NCBI RefSeq assembly: GCF_028285565.1
Contig: NZ_JANQOY010000235.1
Location: 1-32,579 of the forward strand
DNA length: 32,579 nucleotides
Origin: Acaryochloris sp. IP29b_bin.148
Lineage (GTDB): Bacteria; Cyanobacteriota; Cyanobacteriia; Thermosynechococcales; Thermosynechococcaceae
Direction of reading: 5' to 3'
This document shows positions 11,189 through 19,509 of this stretch, piece after piece. Below the pieces are notes generated by a model that made no database searches, was not told the DNA's origin, and saw only the letters and a program-made list of their open reading frames with translations. The number at the start of each line of letters is the position of its first letter. Positions within the stretch are counted from its first letter, which is position 1. The position numbers and the translations under genes are program-made.

Positions 11189-11851
11189 ATGCAACTAACG
11201 AATCAGCGGATGTTACCTCTGGAAGACAAACTGCGTCAACTGGTCCTAGAAGCCCGTCAATATCCATCGGGCCATCTCAAACGGAAACAGTGCTTGACGA
11301 AGATGGTGCGGCTGATCGAACAGTCTCATAAACTCTGGCATGAGCATACACCCTACTATGAAGATGCCTTACAACAAACCTGGGTTTACTTTTGCCAGAA
11401 TGTTTGCGAAGCGGGGACGGGGGAGCAGTACGATCCGAATCGCAGCAGTGTGATCACCTGGTTAAATCGATATCTCAAATGGCGATTACAAGATTTTCGC
11501 ATTGACCAACAAAAGCGCCTAGCTAGATGTACCTCTGCAATGCCCAGTGCGATGGGTAGAACCACAGATGTCACAGATAATATTGCCGCGCCACCGGATA
11601 CCCCTCCCATTCTAGAAACCACGCATCACTGGATCGTCACAGATCCTGAAGGAGAATTACGAAGTATTTACATTCAGAATCGTCCAGATGTGAATTGTCA
11701 GACATTGCTTCTGCGGCGGCTCCCCCCAGAACAAAGCTGGGAGAAGATTTCAGAAGAGTTTGGCTTGCCGATTTCCACTTTAAGCAGCTTTTATCAACGA
11801 CAATGTATTCCCCGCTTGCGTAATTTTGGTCAGTCGCAAGGATATCTATAA
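11189..11851 (+). CDS. Sigma-70-like (ECF-type) protein, first gene of the CHAT/CHASE2 cluster
   Basis: A 220-residue protein resembling a small sigma factor. Region 2-like sequence spans about 45-108: YYEDALQQTWVYFCQN, then YDPNRSSVITWLNRYLKWRL with the WL-rich core-binding and -10-recognition helix. Region 4-like sequence spans about 168-215, with a helix-turn-helix LPPEQSWEKISEEFGLPIST. The linker (about 110-165) is long and poorly conserved-looking. It should direct RNA polymerase to specific promoters, but sequence divergence means it could also be an inactive relative. Start: ATG 11189; the ribosome binding site is weak. The next gene starts 35 bp later on the same strand. Confidence 0.78.
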   Translation: MQLTNQRMLPLEDKLRQLVLEARQYPSGHLKRKQCLTKMVRLIEQSHKLWHEHTPYYEDALQQTWVYFCQNVCEAGTGEQYDPNRSSVITWLNRYLKWRLQDFRIDQQKRLARCTSAMPSAMGRTTDVTDNIAAPPDTPPILETTHHWIVTDPEGELRSIYIQNRPDVNCQTLLLRRLPPEQSWEKISEEFGLPISTLSSFYQRQCIPRLRNFGQSQGYL

Positions 11852-11886
11852 TAGAAGTTCTAGATTTTGACTGTATGCTTCCCTTG

Positions 11887-12837
11887 ATGAGCGATTCTTT
11901 GGCCTTACCCATCACTCAATTTGCCAGACAGACTGCCCAAGAATTTGGACAACAACAGTCAACCCCCGAAAAAGCCCAACAAGTCTATCTCAATACGCTA
12001 GCGGTCTGTGCTGTCAAAAATTACTTTAATTTGATGGACATTCCTTGCAATTTAGAAGCTAGTGATAGCTGGAATCCAGTCATCCGCCTCTATGCTGATG
12101 TGGCGGATCTGGTTGTAACAGGGATTGGCCGATTGGAATGTCGCCCCGTCTTACCTCAAGATCTGACTTGCTCTTTACCCCCTGAGGTCTGGCTTGATCG
12201 CATCGGTTATGTAGCGGTCATGATCGATGAAAGCAACTATCAGGCTCGTCTATTAGGATTTACCACCTCCGTCATAGAAGGCGATATTATCCTCAAACAG
12301 TTACAACCCCTCGAATCTTTGTTAGCCCACCTCAATGAATTTAGACCTGCTATAGCTTCTCAGTCTGCTACTGATCTAGGTCAGTGGCTTCAAGGTATTT
12401 TTGAACAAGGCTGGCAAGTCGTGAACGATATATTGCAGCCTTCAACGCCTGAGTTAGCCTTCAATTTTAGAAGCGCAGCTACAACATCAACCCTAGATCT
12501 TGAGACCAACTCACTTCAAGTTCAACGAGCGAAGTTAATCCAGTTTCAAGACAATCCAGAGGCCACGCCATTAGTTTTAATTATCAATCTCCTTAAAAGT
12601 GAAGGAGATGGCCAACGGATGATTGGTGTACAGCTCCGTCCGGTTGGGAATTGCCTCTTTTTGCCTGCCAATTTGGTGCTCAAAATTCTAGATGGTCAGC
12701 AAACTACGTTTCTAGAAGTCCAATCCCGAGCGGTAGACAACTATATACAACTTGAATTTAGTGGACAGCCCGGAGAGCAATTTCATCTCAGCTTAGAACA
12801 AGGTGAACAGGTAATTACAGAAGCTTTTGTGATGTGA
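11887..12837 (+). CDS. DUF1822 family protein
   Basis: A 316-residue soluble protein of the cyanobacterial DUF1822 family, of unknown function. Recognisable features are the N-terminal LALPITQFARQTAQEF, the segment KAQQVYLNTLAVCAVKNYFN with WNP and DVADLVV following, and GYVAVMID. The C-terminal part (about 200-316) is beta-rich and ends with LEFSGQPGEQFHLSLEQGEQ. There is no signal peptide or membrane segment. Two starts are in frame; ATG 11887 gives MSDSLALP, and the ATG at 11875 adds four residues. The family is often next to sigma-like and CHAT/CHASE2 genes in cyanobacteria (remembered context), which is exactly the arrangement here: 35 bp after the sigma-like gene and 37 bp before the large receptor gene. 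Confidence 0.85.
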   Translation: MSDSLALPITQFARQTAQEFGQQQSTPEKAQQVYLNTLAVCAVKNYFNLMDIPCNLEASDSWNPVIRLYADVADLVVTGIGRLECRPVLPQDLTCSLPPEVWLDRIGYVAVMIDESNYQARLLGFTTSVIEGDIILKQLQPLESLLAHLNEFRPAIASQSATDLGQWLQGIFEQGWQVVNDILQPSTPELAFNFRSAATTSTLDLETNSLQVQRAKLIQFQDNPEATPLVLIINLLKSEGDGQRMIGVQLRPVGNCLFLPANLVLKILDGQQTTFLEVQSRAVDNYIQLEFSGQPGEQFHLSLEQGEQVITEAFVM

Positions 12838-12874
12838 AGACATAATAGAGCTAACTGACCAGGAAAAGGTAGCC

Positions 12875-15800
12875 GTGGACAAGTTGGTGGTCTTAAGGAT
12901 TGGAGAAGGTTGCTTCACACAGGGTTTCCCTGTGACGCTTCAGATTGGCCAAGAGGGGGATCGACCTTCCCTGGAAATTGTTGGCTCCCTGCCTAAAGCA
13001 CCCGAGATCCCCAAATATTATCGAGAATGGCAAATAGCTTATTCTAATTTAGGTTTAGCAACCCGCTTAGAAGCACCCGACACTCAAGTGACGAATGTTG
13101 CTTCGCAAGAGCTCTATGACCACTGTGAAACTGCAGCACAGGCTCTCCAAAGTCACTTAAACGACTGGCTGCTGGACGAAACCTTTCGTCCCCTTCGCGA
13201 TAAATGGTTAGAGCAGTTATCCACCAGCGACTGCATTCGAGTCATTCTACAAACAAATAATCTTCAACTTCAGCGACTGCCCTGGCACCAGTGGGAACTC
13301 TTGCAACGATATGCCCATGCAGAAATTGTTTTGGGTGCCCCGACCTATGAAGGCAAACGCTATCAAGCGGTATCAAAATCTAAGGTTAATATCCTCGCCA
13401 TTTTAGGCAGTAGTCAAGGGATCAATACGCAAGCAGATCAAGCCTTACTGGAAAACCTTCCAGATGCCCATGTGCAATTTTTAGTAGAACCAAAGCGGCA
13501 GGAATTGACCGATCAGCTCTGGGAGCAACATTGGGATATTTTATTCTTTGCAGGACATAGCCACAGCTCAGATCCTTGCGATACAGGACATATTTGCCTC
13601 AATGCTCAAGAGACCCTAAATATTAGTCAGCTCAAGTATGCACTCCAAAAAGCGATTAGTCAGGGTCTGAAGCTGGCCATTTTTAACTCATGCGATGGGT
13701 TAGGACTTGCCCACCAATTGGCAGATTTGCAAATCCCAGCCATGGTGGTCATGCGTGAACCGGTGCCTGATCGAGTTGCCCAGTGCTTTCTCAAATATTT
13801 TCTGACCTCCTTTTCTCAAGGACAGCCTTTCCACTTAGCGGTCAAAGAAGCTCGGGAGAGATTGCACGACTTAGAACCTCAGTTTCCCTGTGCAACTTGG
13901 TTACCCATGATTTGCCAAAATCCAGCTGAGGTCTCTCCGGTATGGAAACATCTCTGCTATGGGACCGAGGCCGAGCAGACAGTGTGGAAGCCACATAATA
14001 GTTCAGTTGCTCAGTTTGTCACGATTGTATTTACTGATCTGGTGAGTTCAACGGCCATTAAGCAGGCCATGCCGGGGGCTAATGTTACCGATCGCAATCA
14101 ACAATATTTTGAAACCATTTTGCAGCCTCATCGCCAAAGAGTGGAAGCTAGCTTAGCAGCCTTTGGGGGTTGCATCATCAAAACGGAAGGCGATGGCTTT
14201 TTAATGAGCTTTCCGGGGGCCATGCAGGCGGTGCAATGGTCGGTAGCATTACAGCAACACCATGAAACGGATCCGATTGATACCCCTTTGGGTCCTCTCC
14301 GCATCAGAATTGGTATGCATACCGGAAGTCCATTAATGGATGCGGAAGATCATGACTATATTGGCCAAGAAGTAGACTATGCCTATCGCATCTCTGATCT
14401 TGCTGATGGGGGGCAAATTTTACTGTCTGAAGTCTCGGCTGTTTTACTACGCAATGCGGGATTAATAGATACTTCGGTTTATTCCCATGGCTATTTCCAC
14501 TTGAAAGGAATTGGCTCAGTTCCTATTTTCGAAATTCTTTGGGATAGCAGACAACCTCAGCCCTTGCGAAGTCCGGCATCGGGACAAGCTGAACCCTCTG
14601 AACCGTTGGCCCCGTCGGATACCGCTGCAGATAGCAGGTCTAAAGCGCCCCCTCTACCCCGGCCTTCTTTACGATCTAGAATTTATCAATTTTGCTACCA
14701 GCCATTGCTGTCTGTACTGCCAACTAGCCTAATTTTGACCGCAGCACTAATGGGTCTCAGAGGGATAGGGGCTTTACAGCCATTAGAATTCTGGGCATTT
14801 GATCAGTTAATGCGCCGCCGTCCCGTTGAAGGGCCAGATCCGCGTATATTGGTTGTTTTAGTCAAAGATGAAGATATCCAAGCCCAAGGGCCTCAGGCCC
14901 GTCGGAGTTCTTTAGCAGATCAAACCCTAACCAAATTACTGACTCAGCTAGAGCAGGCACAGCCTAGAGCAATTGGCCTAGACATCTATCGAGATTTTGC
15001 AGTTGACTCTCGCTACCCTGACTTAAAACGACAACTCCAGCGAAGTGAACGGTTAGTTGTCCCCTGTAAACATAGCGATACCGCGAGTGATCCAGCGGGG
15101 ATTGCACCACCACCAGAAGTATCAGCACCCAATCGCATTGGTTTCACTGACTTCGTTGAAGATGGAGATGGTGTTCTACGGCGACATCTGTTGCATATGA
15201 GTCATGGATCAACCTCTCCTTGCACGGCTCCCTTCTCTTTCGCCTCTTTGCTGGCCTTTCACTATCTTGAACATCAATCGGGTCAAGAGTTAGCTTTAAA
15301 CTTAACGGAACCAGGTCAAGGCAATCCCTTTCAATTGAGCGTCCAACCTACGACATCCATCGATCCAACAGTCTTTAAACACTTACGGGCTCAAGGGGGA
15401 TATCAAGGGATTGATCCTCGCAGCATGGCGGGCTTGCAAGTGATGCTGAATTACCGCGCTTTAAACCAACCTATGGATATTGCGGAAACGGTCACCGTTG
15501 GTCAGGTCCTAGCAGGCCAGGTTCATCCCCGAGCCATTAAGGGAAAAGTGGTGTTGGTGGGAGTCCAGTCCAGTAGTTCTGGAGATTTTTGGTCTACTCC
15601 CTATGGGGCTGGCCCGACTCAAAAAGTTGCGGGTGTATTTGTACAAGCCCATATGCTCAGCCAAATCATTAGTGCAGTGGAGGATGAACGCCCTTGCTTA
15701 TGGATGTGGCCTCAATGGGCGGATGTACTTTGGATATGGAGTTGGGCTATGGTTGGGGGGATGTTGGCGCTGGTGTTCCGGCTGACCATGCGTTTAGGTG

Positions 15801-15985
15801 TAACGAGTGGTTTAGCGATGGGTCTTTTAGTCGCGACATGTCTGTGGGGACTCATTCAGGGAGCTTGGATACCCTTAATTCCTACCCTCTTGGCGTTTTT
15901 ACTCACAAATATCATCGTTTTGCTCATCCGTGCTCAACAGATCAATCAGAATCATCCAAGCTATCCACTTTCATCCAAATCCTGA
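12875..15985 (+). CDS. CHAT protease - class III nucleotidyl cyclase - CHASE2 membrane receptor
   Basis: A 1036-residue multidomain protein. After a roughly 150-residue N-terminal region comes a CHAT (caspase-like) domain (about 165-355) with its His/Cys dyad intact: H228 in FAGHSHS and C273 in FNSCDG. Next is a class III adenylate/guanylate cyclase domain (about 380-525). It has metal-binding D388 (VFTDLVSST) and D440 (KTEGDGF), adenine-type K436 and D494 (DYIG), and R505, but D501 where a transition-state Asn is usual. A Pro/Ser-rich linker (540-605) leads to one membrane helix (about 611-632), a periplasmic CHASE2 sensor (about 636-935), and three closing membrane helices (about 948-1020). 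Both outputs lie N-terminal to the sensor, the reverse of ordinary CHASE2 cyclases. GTG start with AGGAAAAGG upstream. Confidence 0.93.
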   Translation: MDKLVVLRIGEGCFTQGFPVTLQIGQEGDRPSLEIVGSLPKAPEIPKYYREWQIAYSNLGLATRLEAPDTQVTNVASQELYDHCETAAQALQSHLNDWLLDETFRPLRDKWLEQLSTSDCIRVILQTNNLQLQRLPWHQWELLQRYAHAEIVLGAPTYEGKRYQAVSKSKVNILAILGSSQGINTQADQALLENLPDAHVQFLVEPKRQELTDQLWEQHWDILFFAGHSHSSDPCDTGHICLNAQETLNISQLKYALQKAISQGLKLAIFNSCDGLGLAHQLADLQIPAMVVMREPVPDRVAQCFLKYFLTSFSQGQPFHLAVKEARERLHDLEPQFPCATWLPMICQNPAEVSPVWKHLCYGTEAEQTVWKPHNSSVAQFVTIVFTDLVSSTAIKQAMPGANVTDRNQQYFETILQPHRQRVEASLAAFGGCIIKTEGDGFLMSFPGAMQAVQWSVALQQHHETDPIDTPLGPLRIRIGMHTGSPLMDAEDHDYIGQEVDYAYRISDLADGGQILLSEVSAVLLRNAGLIDTSVYSHGYFHLKGIGSVPIFEILWDSRQPQPLRSPASGQAEPSEPLAPSDTAADSRSKAPPLPRPSLRSRIYQFCYQPLLSVLPTSLILTAALMGLRGIGALQPLEFWAFDQLMRRRPVEGPDPRILVVLVKDEDIQAQGPQARRSSLADQTLTKLLTQLEQAQPRAIGLDIYRDFAVDSRYPDLKRQLQRSERLVVPCKHSDTASDPAGIAPPPEVSAPNRIGFTDFVEDGDGVLRRHLLHMSHGSTSPCTAPFSFASLLAFHYLEHQSGQELALNLTEPGQGNPFQLSVQPTTSIDPTVFKHLRAQGGYQGIDPRSMAGLQVMLNYRALNQPMDIAETVTVGQVLAGQVHPRAIKGKVVLVGVQSSSSGDFWSTPYGAGPTQKVAGVFVQAHMLSQIISAVEDERPCLWMWPQWADVLWIWSWAMVGGMLALVFRLTMRLGVTSGLAMGLLVATCLWGLIQGAWIPLIPTLLAFLLTNIIVLLIRAQQINQNHPSYPLSSKS

Positions 15986-16010
15986 TCTTAGACGAAGGAG
16001 ATTTTAATTT

Positions 16011-16853
16011 ATGCTGAGTTCTCAAGGTTTGTTCCGTTCAGTGACACTATCACTGTCCATTGCCGTGCTCAGTTGGGTAGGGTCAGGTTCTTTACGGTTA
16101 ATGGCCATGCAGCCACATCATGGGACGCAATTTAAAATTCCGACAACGACCCAGGATCCGGGTGCCCCCATTGGCCGACGAGAAGGTGGCAGCAGCCGAG
16201 GTAAAAATATTTTCGCGTTATGTACCAGTGTGGAAGAGGTGGCTAGCCAGCAATGTGCAACGGCGAGGTTAACCGCCTTAGTCCCAGAAACAACGGATAC
16301 AAAGCAGGTTTGGGGGTTAACGACGGCCGACCATCCAGAGTTTTTATTCTATCTATCCAAGTTTCGCAATCCCAGCGACCCAGCAATCACACATTTGCCG
16401 ATCGAGTTCGTGCTACAGGATGAAAATGATCAGTACATCTACAAAGCGAGCTTTGTGTTGCCGCTTACTGAAGGGGGAATTATTCGGATCCCTGTTCCTG
16501 CAACCAGTACGCCCTTAAACGTGGGTCAACGGTATACATGGACTTTATATACCCGCTTTCATCCGGATGAGACCAATTTTGTACACGGCACTATTTATCG
16601 GACTCAATTAACCGCTCAACGGCAGCAACAATTGGATACGGCAACGCCTCTCCAACGCTTAGATATTGCCTTGCAAGAAGGGCTCTGGTTCGATGCATTG
16701 TCAACCTTGGTTGATCTGCAGCGAGCTAATCCGAAGGATTTGAAATTGAGAAATCAGTGGGCCAGTTTACTGCATGATATTAATCTCAATGAATTAGCAG
16801 CTGAACCCATGCTCTCGTGCTGTACACCCGAGCCTCATGTTTCTCTCAAGTAA
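16011..16853 (+). CDS. Exported DUF928 family protein
   Basis: A 280-residue protein with an N-terminal signal sequence (SVTLSLSIAVLSWVGSGS, about 10-30), a Gly/Arg/Ser-rich spacer (GRREGGSSRG), and a DUF928 domain (about 65-270). That domain carries LTALVPETTD, the HPEFLFYLSKF strand, FVLQDENDQYIYKASF and the helical C-terminal part LDIALQEGLWFDAL. DUF928 is a cyanobacterial family of unknown function. Export would place it in the same compartment as the CHASE2 sensor encoded 25 bp upstream, so it could be that sensor's ligand-binding partner or modulator; this is inference from gene order. A GAAGGAG ribosome binding site precedes the ATG. It is the last gene of the four-gene cluster. Confidence 0.87.
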   Translation: MLSSQGLFRSVTLSLSIAVLSWVGSGSLRLMAMQPHHGTQFKIPTTTQDPGAPIGRREGGSSRGKNIFALCTSVEEVASQQCATARLTALVPETTDTKQVWGLTTADHPEFLFYLSKFRNPSDPAITHLPIEFVLQDENDQYIYKASFVLPLTEGGIIRIPVPATSTPLNVGQRYTWTLYTRFHPDETNFVHGTIYRTQLTAQRQQQLDTATPLQRLDIALQEGLWFDALSTLVDLQRANPKDLKLRNQWASLLHDINLNELAAEPMLSCCTPEPHVSLK

Positions 16854-16950: not shown

Positions 16951-16980
16951 TTGACATCTACCTACTAGATGGTAGATACT
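16951..16980 (+). promoter_or_regulatory. Promoter of the TetR gene, overlapping its operator
   Basis: A perfect -35 box TTGACA (16951-16956) and a -10-like GATACT (16975-16980) are separated by 18 bp. The palindromic operator fills the spacer, so repressor binding would block polymerase directly. The expected transcription start, 6-7 bp after the -10, falls on the ATG at 16987. Confidence 0.6.
16956..16977. promoter_or_regulatory. TetR-family operator, site O1 (autoregulatory)
   Basis: A 22-bp palindrome: ATCTACC, eight bases centred on CTAG, then GGTAGAT, with only the two innermost arm positions mismatched. The same CTAG-centred core recurs at 17573-17588 in front of the SDR gene. Size and symmetry suit a TetR-type dimer. 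Confidence 0.75.
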
Positions 16981-16986
16981 GGGGGT

Positions 16987-17553
16987 ATGGAGAAAAACAC
17001 GGCCACTCAAATCCTAGATGTTGCCCAAGAGATGGTGCGGAATCGAGGCTATAGCGCCTTTAGTTACGCCGATATCTCCCAGCAAGTGGGGATTCGCAAA
17101 GCCAGTATTCACTATCACTTTTCCACTAAGGATGAGTTAGTGAAGGAACTGGTGAAGCGATATCGAGAGGGCATGATGCGGGCGTGCGATCGCATCACCC
17201 AATCCAACGCCAGTCTTGATCAGCAGATGTTCCAATTTGCCCAGCTCTATCGCAATGGTTTAGAAGAAGAACAAATCTGTCTCTGTGCCATGTTGGCTGC
17301 AGATTATGCCGTTCTTCCCCAACCGGTCCGAGACGAGATTCAAGCTTTCTTTCAGGAAACGGAAACTTGGCTCACCAACCTTCTCCAGCAAGGATGCGAC
17401 GCCCAACTTTGGACCTGCCAGCCTGAGCAAGAAGCCAAAGGGTTAATTGCTCTGTTCCAAGGCGTGCAATTGTTAGCCCGTTCCGCAGCGGGCACCACCA
17501 CCTTTGAGCAAGTGGTTTATCCTCTCTTAGCAACCAAATTTCCGAGTCGTTAA
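16987..17553 (+). CDS. TetR/AcrR family transcriptional repressor
   Basis: A 188-residue TetR-type repressor. The N-terminal DNA-binding domain (about 5-55) has ILDVAQEMVRNRGYSAF, then YADISQQVGIRKASIHYHF and STKDEL, the canonical helix-turn-helix. The C-terminal ligand domain carries several cysteines (RACDRI, QICLCAML, GCDAQLWTC), which could sense thiol-reactive compounds as in NemR-like regulators; this is inference. Start: an ATG at 16969 would add six residues, but it lies inside the operator and upstream of the predicted transcription start, so ATG 16987 is chosen; that makes the mRNA essentially leaderless. The regulated operon starts 71 bp downstream on the same strand. Confidence 0.92.
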   Translation: MEKNTATQILDVAQEMVRNRGYSAFSYADISQQVGIRKASIHYHFSTKDELVKELVKRYREGMMRACDRITQSNASLDQQMFQFAQLYRNGLEEEQICLCAMLAADYAVLPQPVRDEIQAFFQETETWLTNLLQQGCDAQLWTCQPEQEAKGLIALFQGVQLLARSAAGTTTFEQVVYPLLATKFPSR

Positions 17554-17572
17554 ATTTTTTTGCCTTGCTATC

Positions 17573-17588
17573 TACCTACTAGTAGGTA
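17573..17588. promoter_or_regulatory. TetR-family operator, site O2 (in front of the SDR operon)
   Basis: A perfect 16-bp palindrome, TACCTACTAGTAGGTA, between the TetR stop codon and the SDR gene. It shares the CTAG-centred core with the operator in the TetR promoter. A TTGCTA (17565-17570) and TTTAAA (17589-17594) flank it as possible -35 and -10 boxes, 18 bp apart. Confidence 0.8.
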
Positions 17589-17623
17589 TTTAAAATCATT
17601 CATCCATCTATTAGGAGTTCATC

Positions 17624-18406
17624 ATGTCTCAATCCTTTACCGGTCAAAAACTCATTGTTGTCGGTGGCACCAGCGGCATGGGCAAAGCCGTTGCCCGCAT
17701 CGTCCTTGAACAGGGAGGCTCCGCAGTCTTAATTGGTCGTCGCCTTGAAAAGCTCCATGCAGCCATTGAGGAATTAAAAGCCTATGGTCCGGTATCCGGC
17801 GAGCAAGCCGATATTGCCAGCCCAGAAGATCGTCAGGCCCTAATCGCCCGCCTCAATCAGTCCCATGCCGATGCCACCCTATTGGTTAACGCCGCTGGCG
17901 TCTTTCTGCCCAAGCCTTTTCTGGAGTATCAAGAAGCCGACTACGATCGCTACTTAGAGCTGAACAAAGCCACCTTCTTTATTACTCAAGCCGTCGTCCA
18001 GAACATCATCAACCACCATCACAAAGGAGCCATCGTCAATGTCGGTTCCATGTGGGCCAAGCAAGCCGTACAGGCCACACCATCCTCCGCCTACTCCATG
18101 GCCAAAGCCGGACTCCATTCCCTTACCCAACATCTCGCTATGGAACTGGCCGAGCATAATATTCGAGTCAATGCCGTTTCCCCCGCAGTTGTCGCTACTC
18201 CCATCTATGAAGGGTTTATTCCCAAAGAAGAGGTCCATGGAGCCCTACAAGGCTTTAACAGCTTTCATCCCATTGGTCGCATCGGCACCCCTGAAGACAT
18301 CGCTGAAACCATCGCCTTCTTACTATCCGATAAAACCAGCTGGGCAACAGGCGCAATCTGGGATATAGATGGTGGCGTCATGGCCGGTCGGAACCAGTAC
18401 AGCTAG
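17624..18406 (+). CDS. Short-chain dehydrogenase/reductase (SDR)
   Basis: A 260-residue classical SDR. The NAD(P)-binding GGTSGMGKA lies at residues 14-22, the structural NAAG near residue 90, and the catalytic Tyr157-Lys161 pair in SAYSMAKAG, with an upstream Ser in VNVGSMW. The closing segment [13 protein letters not shown] is typical. An Arg after the glycine motif (IGRRLEK) suggests NADPH preference. The substrate is unknown; as first gene of a TetR-controlled operon with a cupin and an OsmC-like protein, reduction of a reactive carbonyl or quinone is plausible. AGGAG precedes the ATG. The next gene follows after 33 bp. Confidence 0.94.
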
Positions 18407-18439
18407 CGTTGCAGACAGTAAACAGAAGAGATAGGCACT

Positions 18440-19120
18440 ATGAAAATTCACGCAGATCTAACGCAACGGGCTGTTGTCCATAGCGACGCCCTACCCTGGG
18501 TGAAGTCTCCCATGCCAGGGGTTCATCGCCGCATGTTGGAGCGGGATGGCAAAGAAGTGGCTCGGGCCACCTCCATCGTTCGCTATGCCCCTGGCAGTGC
18601 ATTCTCTGCCCACACCCACGGGGGTGGCGAAGAATATATTGTCATAGACGGCGTGTTCTCCGATGAGCATGGCGACTTTGGGCCAGGCACGTATGTCCGT
18701 AATCCGGTCGGATCCAGCCACACCCCCCATAGCAAAGAAGGAGCCACCATTCTGGTCAAACTCTGGCAAATGGACCCAGCCGATCAGCAGCCAGTGGTGG
18801 TTGATACCAATCAGGCAGAATGGGTGCCGGGTTTAGTACCAGGGTTGCAGGTGCTACCGCTACATCATCACGGTACGGAGCAAGTAGCGTTCGTGAAGTG
18901 GGCACCGGGGACAAAGTTCCAAACCCACCAGCACTGGGGCGGCGAAGAAATCTTTGTCCTAGACGGCACCTTTGCCGATGACCAGGGCGTTTATCCCCAG
19001 GGGACTTGGCTACGCAATCCCCCCGGCAGCATCCATACCCCCTTTAGTGAAGAAGGCTGTCTGATTTACGTGAAAACGGGACATTTAGAGAAGGTCTATC
19101 ACCCAGGAGAATCCTTATGA
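18440..19120 (+). CDS. Double-cupin protein, ChrR-like
   Basis: A 226-residue protein made of two tandem cupin domains related to the C-terminal cupin of the anti-sigma factor ChrR. Each half keeps the metal-binding set: HTHGGGEEYIVIDG with GSSHTP in the first (about 40-100), and HQHWGGEEIFVLDG with GSIHTP in the second (about 150-212). There is no N-terminal zinc anti-sigma domain, so it is not an anti-sigma factor by structure. Possible roles are metal-dependent dioxygenase or small-molecule binding in stress defence. Its stop overlaps the ATG of the OsmC-like gene (ATGA), implying coupled translation. Confidence 0.9.
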   Translation: MKIHADLTQRAVVHSDALPWVKSPMPGVHRRMLERDGKEVARATSIVRYAPGSAFSAHTHGGGEEYIVIDGVFSDEHGDFGPGTYVRNPVGSSHTPHSKEGATILVKLWQMDPADQQPVVVDTNQAEWVPGLVPGLQVLPLHHHGTEQVAFVKWAPGTKFQTHQHWGGEEIFVLDGTFADDQGVYPQGTWLRNPPGSIHTPFSEEGCLIYVKTGHLEKVYHPGESL

Positions 19121-19509
19121 TTTCGGTTCAAGTTGCCTCCAATCATTCCCGGTATGGCCAAGATATTTCCATACGCCATCTACATTTGGCTGCGGATGAA
19201 CCGGCGTCCCTCGGGGGGGATGATCTGGGTCCTACCCCAACGGAATTGATTTTTGCAGGCTTAGGCTCGTGCAAGGCAATTACCCTGCAAATGTATGCCG
19301 AGCGCAAAGGATGGCAGCTAGAGTCCGTGGCGGTGGAGTTGAGTTACGACTCCAATGATCAACAGCCCGCCATCCAGGCCAAGCTCACCCTCGAAGGTGA
19401 CCTAGATGAACAGCAACGACAACGGCTCCGAGACATTAGCGATCGTTGCCCGGCCCATAAACTGCTGACCACTCCGGTCAAGATCGAAACACAACTCGTT
19501 GTTGCTTAA
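19117..19509 (+). CDS. OsmC-like thiol protein (peroxiredoxin-related)
   Basis: A 130-residue OsmC/Ohr-superfamily protein. The redox pair is present: C52 in GLGSCKAITLQMYAERKGW and C111 in DRCPAHKLL, each in the family's normal helical context. OsmC and Ohr proteins reduce organic hydroperoxides through these cysteines; other relatives are less well understood. The sequence DDLGPTPTELIFAGLG matches the YhfA/OsmC branch rather than Ohr. It is the last gene of the TetR-controlled operon and overlaps the cupin gene by 4 bp. Its presence is the best argument that the operon defends against oxidants or electrophiles. Confidence 0.93.
   Translation: MISVQVASNHSRYGQDISIRHLHLAADEPASLGGDDLGPTPTELIFAGLGSCKAITLQMYAERKGWQLESVAVELSYDSNDQQPAIQAKLTLEGDLDEQQRQRLRDISDRCPAHKLLTTPVKIETQLVVA

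Follow-up and report, generated by a model that had tools for sequence, protein, structure and literature searches.

A four-gene cassette of Acaryochloris and the possible control of an ECF-like sigma factor by a CHAT receptor

Introduction

What could join, in four consecutive genes of a cyanobacterium, a sigma-like protein, members of the common and unexplained families DUF1822 and DUF928, and a receptor that combines a caspase-like CHAT domain, a nucleotide cyclase and a CHASE2 sensor? The genes lie at positions 11189-16853 of contig NZ_JANQOY010000235.1 of Acaryochloris sp. IP29b_bin.148 (assembly GCF_028285565.1), whose 32,579 nucleotides make up the window analyzed here. The cassette appears to be one copy of a widespread cyanobacterial set linking an outside sensor, a caspase-like protease and a transcription factor. 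It may work as a receptor-controlled sigma switch, in which CHASE2 and DUF928 sense, CHAT acts on DUF1822 and the sigma factor is freed, a reading that we consider evenly balanced between right and wrong. The data give both uncharacterized families a specific, testable role, with DUF1822 proposed as the link between sigma factor and CHAT protease and DUF928 as the exported partner of CHASE2.

Anatomy of the cassette

A preliminary description of the window had listed four genes on one strand, and all four exist as plus-strand open reading frames (ORFs). They encode an extracytoplasmic function (ECF)-sigma-like protein (11189..11851, 220 aa), a DUF1822 protein (11875..12837, 320 aa; Pfam E=3e-72), the membrane receptor (12875..15985, 1036 aa, with a GTG start) and a DUF928 protein (16011..16853, 280 aa; Pfam E=5.8e-47). 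The intergenic gaps are 23, 37 and 25 bp; the last two had been given correctly, and the 35 bp claimed for the first fits a second in-frame ATG of the DUF1822 gene at 11887.

The receptor begins with a region (12875..13324) that is conserved in its paralogs and that we call EACC2-like by context only, following Kaur et al. 2021; no EACC2 model turned up in Pfam or NCBIfam scans of the window proteins, and a PDB search with the EACC2-CHAT part returned nothing useful. The CHAT domain follows (13325..13876, Pfam E=3.1e-13). It retains His228 in the motif FFAGHS (codon 13556-13558) and Cys273 in FNSC (codon 13691-13693), which we take to be the catalytic dyad, as the cyclase positions given below are presumed to serve its active site; the description of the protease site as intact thus stands. 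The CHASE2 domain (14738..15760, Pfam E=7.8e-62) opens with one hydrophobic stretch (residues 610-628), and several more lie at and beyond its end (950-1017), a layout that fits CHASE2 outside the membrane with CHAT and cyclase inside. An N-terminal hydrophobic stretch in the DUF928 protein (residues 6-28) is a putative export signal. An outside sensing half made up of CHASE2 and an exported DUF928 protein, as had been suggested, is supported in this way, with sidedness and export both predicted.

The sigma-like protein is a probable diverged ECF sigma factor, as had also been suggested, judging by its family and its predicted fold. Sigma70_r2 was detected in three of 22 family members (E<=1, best E=0.0013), and the best PDB match of the family profile is an ECF sigma factor, at a chance-level E of 0.25. 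The structure model has a predicted local distance difference test score (pLDDT) of 78 and a predicted template modeling score (pTM) of 0.43, with region-2-like helices at residues ~57-115 and C-terminal helix-turn-helix-like helices at ~184-217. Its first 16 fold matches are sigma factors judging by titles and chains, about half of them ECF; Escherichia coli sigmaE ranks second (probability 0.96, E=0.037, template modeling (TM) score 0.31-0.37). Region 2 of sigmaE alone fits better, with a TM-score of 0.55 of the target and a root-mean-square deviation (rmsd) of 5.2 Å, at E=3.0.

In other cassettes different proteins occupy the sigma position. Ten such upstream proteins were scanned, of which six lie above the NCBIfam sigma70-ECF cut-off, one lies just below it and three have no notable match, one of these, from a Nostoc plasmid, being annotated as a sigma-70 family factor. 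Five of 10 sigma-like genes from other cassettes also match the NCBIfam CRISPR-sigma model, all below its cut-off, and general ECF similarity would yield such matches too. At one Nostoc locus (L035) the sigma gene lies further away, with a long gene in between. At another locus (L084:4400-6973), the same sigma-like domain forms the C-terminal end of an 858 aa NACHT-HEAT protein, identified by Pfam, ahead of DUF1822 and CHAT-CHASE2 genes; a protein of equal length and sigma-match position, assigned on those two features and not by Pfam, stands ahead of the same two genes at L089:130-2703.

The model of the DUF1822 protein is fairly confident (pLDDT 86, pTM 0.57) and consists of an N-terminal alpha/beta part of helices and strands followed by a C-terminal beta-sandwich. 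The sandwich has weak matches, mostly to generic beta-sandwiches (Ig-like and similar), none of them at E<=0.001. The model contains no tetratricopeptide repeat (TPR) array, which speaks against a TPR protein for the window member, and profile and member searches of PDB and NCBIfam detected no relation to Csx30.

A conserved neighborhood with exchangeable sensors

The arrangement is not a chance one, because the genome contains it two more times and it is also found across the class. Two further four-gene cassettes of IP29b_bin.148, on contigs C137 (L010) and C186 (L011), are each encoded on a single strand in the order sigma-like, DUF1822, CHAT-CHASE2 and DUF928, both without a cyclase, and their receptors are each 41% identical to that of the window. 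Among named loci, the best matches to the CHAT part come from Acaryochloris, at 74-79% identity.

Two samples were used to follow the neighborhood further. A contig scan with the N-terminal EACC2-CHAT part gave at least 557 confirmed relatives, and the best 80 form an 80-locus set that leans to close relatives; its counts require a flank of 1.5 kb or more (2.8 kb in the case of the sigma gene), and one locus (L086) is scored by its nearer, CHASE2-less ORF. The class sample is a separate draw of 60 genomes, which may share genomes with the 80-locus set. Here 70 EACC2-CHAT rows scoring 118 bits or more were kept and weaker ones, mostly CHAT-only matches, left out, as were eight of 103 DUF1822 rows that were fragments or below threshold, leaving 95; removal of the window's own genome leaves 67 EACC2-CHAT regions.

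DUF1822 lies directly upstream of the EACC2-CHAT receptor at 65 of the 75 loci with enough flank in the 80-locus set. In the class sample a DUF1822 match ends within 700 bp upstream in 52 of 70 EACC2-CHAT rows and, counted from the other side, EACC2-CHAT stands behind 52 of 95 DUF1822 rows. The 700 bp rule is applied between profile matches and misses some ORF-adjacent genes (L159, L168 and L171, for example); by ORF, DUF1822 is directly upstream in 46 of the 61 regions with enough flank. A survey of gene neighborhoods had been set beforehand as a test of co-occurrence, and the core of the cassette passes it. The DUF1822 family as a whole is common, matching in 39 of the 60 class genomes.

The sensor end of the receptor is exchangeable. 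Relatives replace CHASE2 by WD40 plus nSTAND1, a periplasmic-binding domain, a kinase, TPRs, beta-propeller repeats or a PsbP-like domain, and some carry pentapeptide repeats in front of CHAT instead. Genes for a window-type sigma and DUF1822 also precede CHAT proteins with WD40, periplasmic-binding, kinase or PsbP-like parts. In Kamptonema (L095:8001-13973), one frame of 1991 aa joins EACC2-CHAT, an ATPase-like part, TPRs and a RelA/SpoT synthetase part; this may reflect a genuine fusion or a join made in sequencing.

EACC2-CHAT relatives also occur on plasmids, in 40 of 72,556 records at E<=1e-20. Eleven of these 40 cyanobacterial records are typed as conjugative (loci L231-L233 are among the plasmid loci), and one plasmid locus (L232) has the order sigma, DUF1822, CHASE2-protein.

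DUF928 pairs with the CHASE2 sensor

DUF928 pairs with the CHASE2 sensor and not with the core. It follows 57 of 61 CHASE2 receptors and none of seven others in the 80-locus set; in the class sample it follows 24 of 38 CHASE2 receptors against none of 22 with other partners (p=2.9e-7). The class-sample counts were tallied by hand, and 16 of the 22 receptors without CHASE2 were checked by Pfam, the other six (L162, L164, L166, L175, L176 and L180) being classed by our own hidden Markov model. Of the 14 CHASE2 receptors without DUF928, three resemble the window's and 11 belong to a divergent CHAT-CHASE2 group. Because DUF928 is absent beside receptors with other partners, it was rejected as a partner of the CHAT core in general, and a strict rule that each CHASE2 receptor has a DUF928 gene is ruled out by the divergent CHASE2 domains found by Pfam.

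The pairing is also seen independently of CHAT. With 150 genes of each kind listed, at least 54 of the 150 DUF928 genes have a listed CHASE2 gene no more than 3 kb away, against a chance expectation of ~0.9 in a 5.5 Mb genome. DUF928 is matched in 50 of the 60 class genomes. A single genome (G015) holds large sets of both families, with 20 DUF928 and 16 CHASE2 matches.

Co-variation follows the order of a possible relay

Partial correlations of protein distances, taken as plain percent differences with significance by 500 shuffles, describe how closely the parts vary together. Across 48 cassettes, the sigma-like protein co-varies with DUF1822 given the EACC2-CHAT part of the receptor (0.52, 0/500 shuffles), as does DUF1822 with the receptor given sigma (0.66, 0/500); sigma and receptor given DUF1822 yield 0.06 (122/500). 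Across 68 cassettes, DUF928 co-varies with CHASE2 given CHAT (0.63, 0/500), and the value for DUF928 and CHAT given CHASE2 is 0.21 (1/500). DUF928 and DUF1822 given CHASE2 reach 0.31 (0/500), a value not expected of a strict chain. Taken pair by pair, co-variation runs in the order sigma, DUF1822, CHAT, CHASE2, DUF928, as it would in a relay.

The cyclase is an insertion of the genus

The class III nucleotide cyclase domain (14012..14515, Pfam Guanylate_cyc E=3.9e-8) stands between CHAT and CHASE2. We take the canonical set of this class to be a metal-binding Asp pair, a Lys/Asp purine pair and an Asn/Arg transition-state pair; the window domain keeps D388, K436, D440, D494 and R505 and has an Asp at position 501, where the canonical residue is Asn. 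Five of six positions kept, with the same Asn-to-Asp change, is the pattern in all five aligned genus sequences, the window included, in agreement with the earlier view of a mostly intact site. Its closest solved relatives are the Ma1120 structures (E about 5e-11), and in the alignment Ma1120 is also without Asn there.

Aligned with both cyclase-free paralogs, the domain is a clean insertion. The orthologous receptor carries it in six of seven Acaryochloris genomes. In one of these, G195 (L227, 5524-8562), the receptor is broken into three frames and may be a decayed gene or an assembly error, and in another, G198, it is cut by the contig end. The remaining genome, G196, has a complete four-gene cassette from which the cyclase is cleanly absent. 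G196 groups with G198 in the tree (support 93), which makes one gain followed by a loss in G196 the simpler history. Elsewhere the cyclase is found in none of the 67 class-sample EACC2-CHAT regions, and in the 80-locus set only in the three Acaryochloris loci. By these sequence comparisons it is a genus-level insertion, an optional extra to the pathway. The preliminary description had made cyclic nucleotide a part of the pathway itself, which is not borne out: absence from both paralogs, from one genus ortholog and from all 67 outside regions places the cyclase outside the conserved pathway and rules it out as a core part.

A cyclase search in 194 genomes adds a second context. The two nearest matches outside the genus (54% and 52%) directly precede CHASE2, one of them preceded in turn by a trypsin-like domain, and DUF928 adjoins both. 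We observed a trypsin-cyclase-CHASE2 protein (L229:6038-8551) and a cyclase-CHASE2 protein (L230:5208-7091), each with an adjoining DUF928 gene, and the protease ahead of a cyclase-CHASE2 unit seems swappable. None of 26 more distant cyclase proteins that were fetched has EACC2-CHAT or CHASE2 in frame. The CHASE2 domains of the cyclase-CHASE2 proteins from G073 and G015 fall inside the CHAT-CHASE2 clade, with no supported placement next to the genus, and a descent of the window receptor from these proteins was rejected only provisionally. Candidate readers of a cyclic nucleotide are present, since the genome has 14 cyclic nucleotide (cNMP)-binding matches, 12 of them above the cut-off.

A possible sigma switch and its alternatives

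In the switch that we propose, CHASE2 outside the membrane, aided by exported DUF928, would sense a signal, possibly by binding a ligand, and the membrane helices would relay the signal to the CHAT protease on the inner side. DUF1822 would bind the ECF-like sigma factor and keep it inactive. Activated CHAT might then cleave or remodel DUF1822 and free the sigma factor to transcribe its target genes, by analogy with Craspase, Csx30 and the CASP-sigma factor. In the genus Acaryochloris, the cyclase between CHAT and CHASE2, if active, may add cyclic nucleotide as an optional second output. A wider version would give cyanobacteria a large family of CHAT proteases, anchored in the membrane and with interchangeable sensors, which release ECF-like sigma factors by cutting DUF1822, a CRISPR-free functional cousin of the Craspase-Csx30-sigma system, with DUF928 dedicated to CHASE2 and with an Acaryochloris receptor that turns one signal into proteolysis, transcription and a second messenger; we hold it tentatively, as a possibility that will sooner fail than stand. 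If the proposed roles of DUF1822 and DUF928 are right, many uncharacterized receptors gain a predicted output.

Several observations weigh against the switch. Searched by sequence, the window's sigma-like protein itself hits nothing in Pfam, NCBIfam or PDB. Its structural matches reach TM-scores of no more than 0.15-0.40, at an rmsd of 15-25 Å across both domains, and none is at E<=0.001. A window-type sigma gene lies within 3 kb upstream of the receptor at just 16 of 69 loci in the 80-locus set (anywhere in the locus at 23 of 69) and in 28 of 61 class-sample regions. DUF1822 gave one chance-level match in PDB, and no link to Csx30 or to an anti-sigma factor could be detected; 34 members searched against NCBIfam gave a best E of 0.04 and no Csx30, in libraries whose content of a Csx30 entry (PDB and NCBIfam alike) was not checked; and of 1352 fold matches, the 50 listed include no anti-sigma factor. 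The divergent CHAT-CHASE2 group mostly has DUF1822 yet lacks DUF928. The order of co-variation is also the order of the genes, so recombination between neighbors or linked inheritance could produce the pattern without contact. A place for DUF1822 between sigma factor and protease, as had been proposed, fits the distance analysis, and gene order alone could explain it.

Alternatively, the cassette may be a counter-invader or cell-death module, as in the proposal of Kaur et al. 2021 (PMC8195603), in which an EACC2-caspase protein senses a stimulus and cleaves itself, and a sigma factor or other partner drives suicide or defense. The same gene plan appears in that paper, relatives are carried on the plasmids counted above, EACC2-CHAT is joined elsewhere to STAND, WD40 or kinase parts, and the sigma-like domain ends a NACHT-HEAT protein at one locus and, by length and match position, at a second. 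The four cassette proteins, however, have no PADLOC match, no toxic effector is visible in the cassette, and CHASE2 with exported DUF928 would suit an environmental signal better than an intracellular invader; we regard this explanation as rather unlikely. Another possibility is that CHAT cuts the sigma-like protein or the receptor itself, and that DUF1822 is a scaffold docking the sigma factor to the receptor and no inhibitor. DUF1822 co-varies with both neighbors and its predicted beta-sandwich suits protein contacts, but in the experimental CHAT-sigma precedent the inhibitor is the substrate (PMC10028731), and we think a scaffold somewhat less plausible still.

A further reading is that the CHASE2-DUF928 pair and the sigma-DUF1822-CHAT trio are neighbors by history that act separately. 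Among the matches listed, 43 of the 54 DUF928-CHASE2 pairs have no EACC2-CHAT within 3 kb, and 43 of 95 DUF1822 rows have none within 700 bp behind, at least three of them being ORF-adjacent all the same. Set against these counts, CHAT and CHASE2 share one polypeptide and DUF928 tracks the type of sensor, which makes separate action improbable in our judgment.

Surroundings of the cassette

Directly past the cassette, at 16969-19509, stands a row of TetR, short-chain dehydrogenase, ChrR-type double cupin and OsmC genes, which may form a stress unit of their own. The contig edge (32315-32577) holds two direct repeat pairs, 94% and 83% alike, which are perhaps part of a repetitive gene running off the contig end. 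A promoter scan found 10 candidates against 8.8 expected, and a terminator scan found one against 7.0 expected.

Comparison with known systems

The preliminary description had presented the pathway as novel, which does not hold in outline. In the portion of the paper considered here, Kaur et al. (eLife 2021, PMC8195603) describe proteins that combine EACC2 with a caspase and end in one of several C-terminal domains, of which CHASE2 is one. ECF sigma and DUF1822 genes lie beside them, and the authors suggest that the proteins activate themselves by cleavage and that a step of transcription is involved. The window probably shares the N-terminal region, and it shares the caspase-type domain, the CHASE2 C-terminus and both neighboring genes, with CHAT, CHASE2 and DUF1822 recognized by Pfam and the sigma factor by family profile and fold only. 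It differs in having a cyclase, which the available part of that paper does not name in this setting, and DUF928, which has no occurrence in its main text; in addition, the paper labels DUF1822 as TPR, whereas our model shows an alpha/beta part and a beta-sandwich. The searched literature held nothing else relevant on EACC2. A cyclase and a caspase in one protein are not new as such, because the same paper reports them in a TRADD-N protein of Gemmata massiliana.

Other partial likenesses are known from sections of earlier studies. A Trichodesmium metacaspase-CHASE2 protein also has an N-terminal caspase-type domain and a C-terminal CHASE2, with one helix before CHASE2 and three after; it differs in having no cyclase, and no sigma or DUF1822 partner is named in the part considered (PMC3501461). 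Myxococcus metacaspase operons contain sigma-70 genes (PMC3501461). CHASE2 and DUF928 genes share one cluster with WD40 genes in Nostoc punctiforme, alone among seven species, a co-occurrence from which the relevant section draws no general rule (PMC5587647); we found no other mention of DUF928 in the searched literature. In HetF, another CHAT protein of cyanobacteria, function depends on the conserved active site (PMC8406250). Neither a cyclase insertion of this kind nor a DUF928-CHASE2 rule was found in the portions covered of the searched literature on DUF1822, CHASE2, CHAT, sigma factors and caspases. These two features look new, as do the different picture of DUF1822 and the concrete relay.

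The closest functional parallel may be the output arm of type III-E CRISPR systems, in which Csx29, a protease with TPR and CHAT parts, the latter a caspase-superfamily domain, cuts Csx30, a protein that binds and inhibits the ECF-type CASP-sigma factor RpoE (PMC10028731, PMC9729208). Both systems encode a CHAT protease, an ECF-type sigma factor, in the window a probable one, and a third protein at one locus. The differences are that the window has no CRISPR-like array or direct repeat of that kind, that DUF1822 has no detectable relation to Csx30, and that the four cassette proteins match no PADLOC family, Cas7-11 not having been sought elsewhere in the genome. The trigger in the window also looks like a membrane sensor and not RNA. 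If the proposed switch is true, CHAT-controlled sigma release would be a general signaling principle and not a peculiarity of CRISPR.

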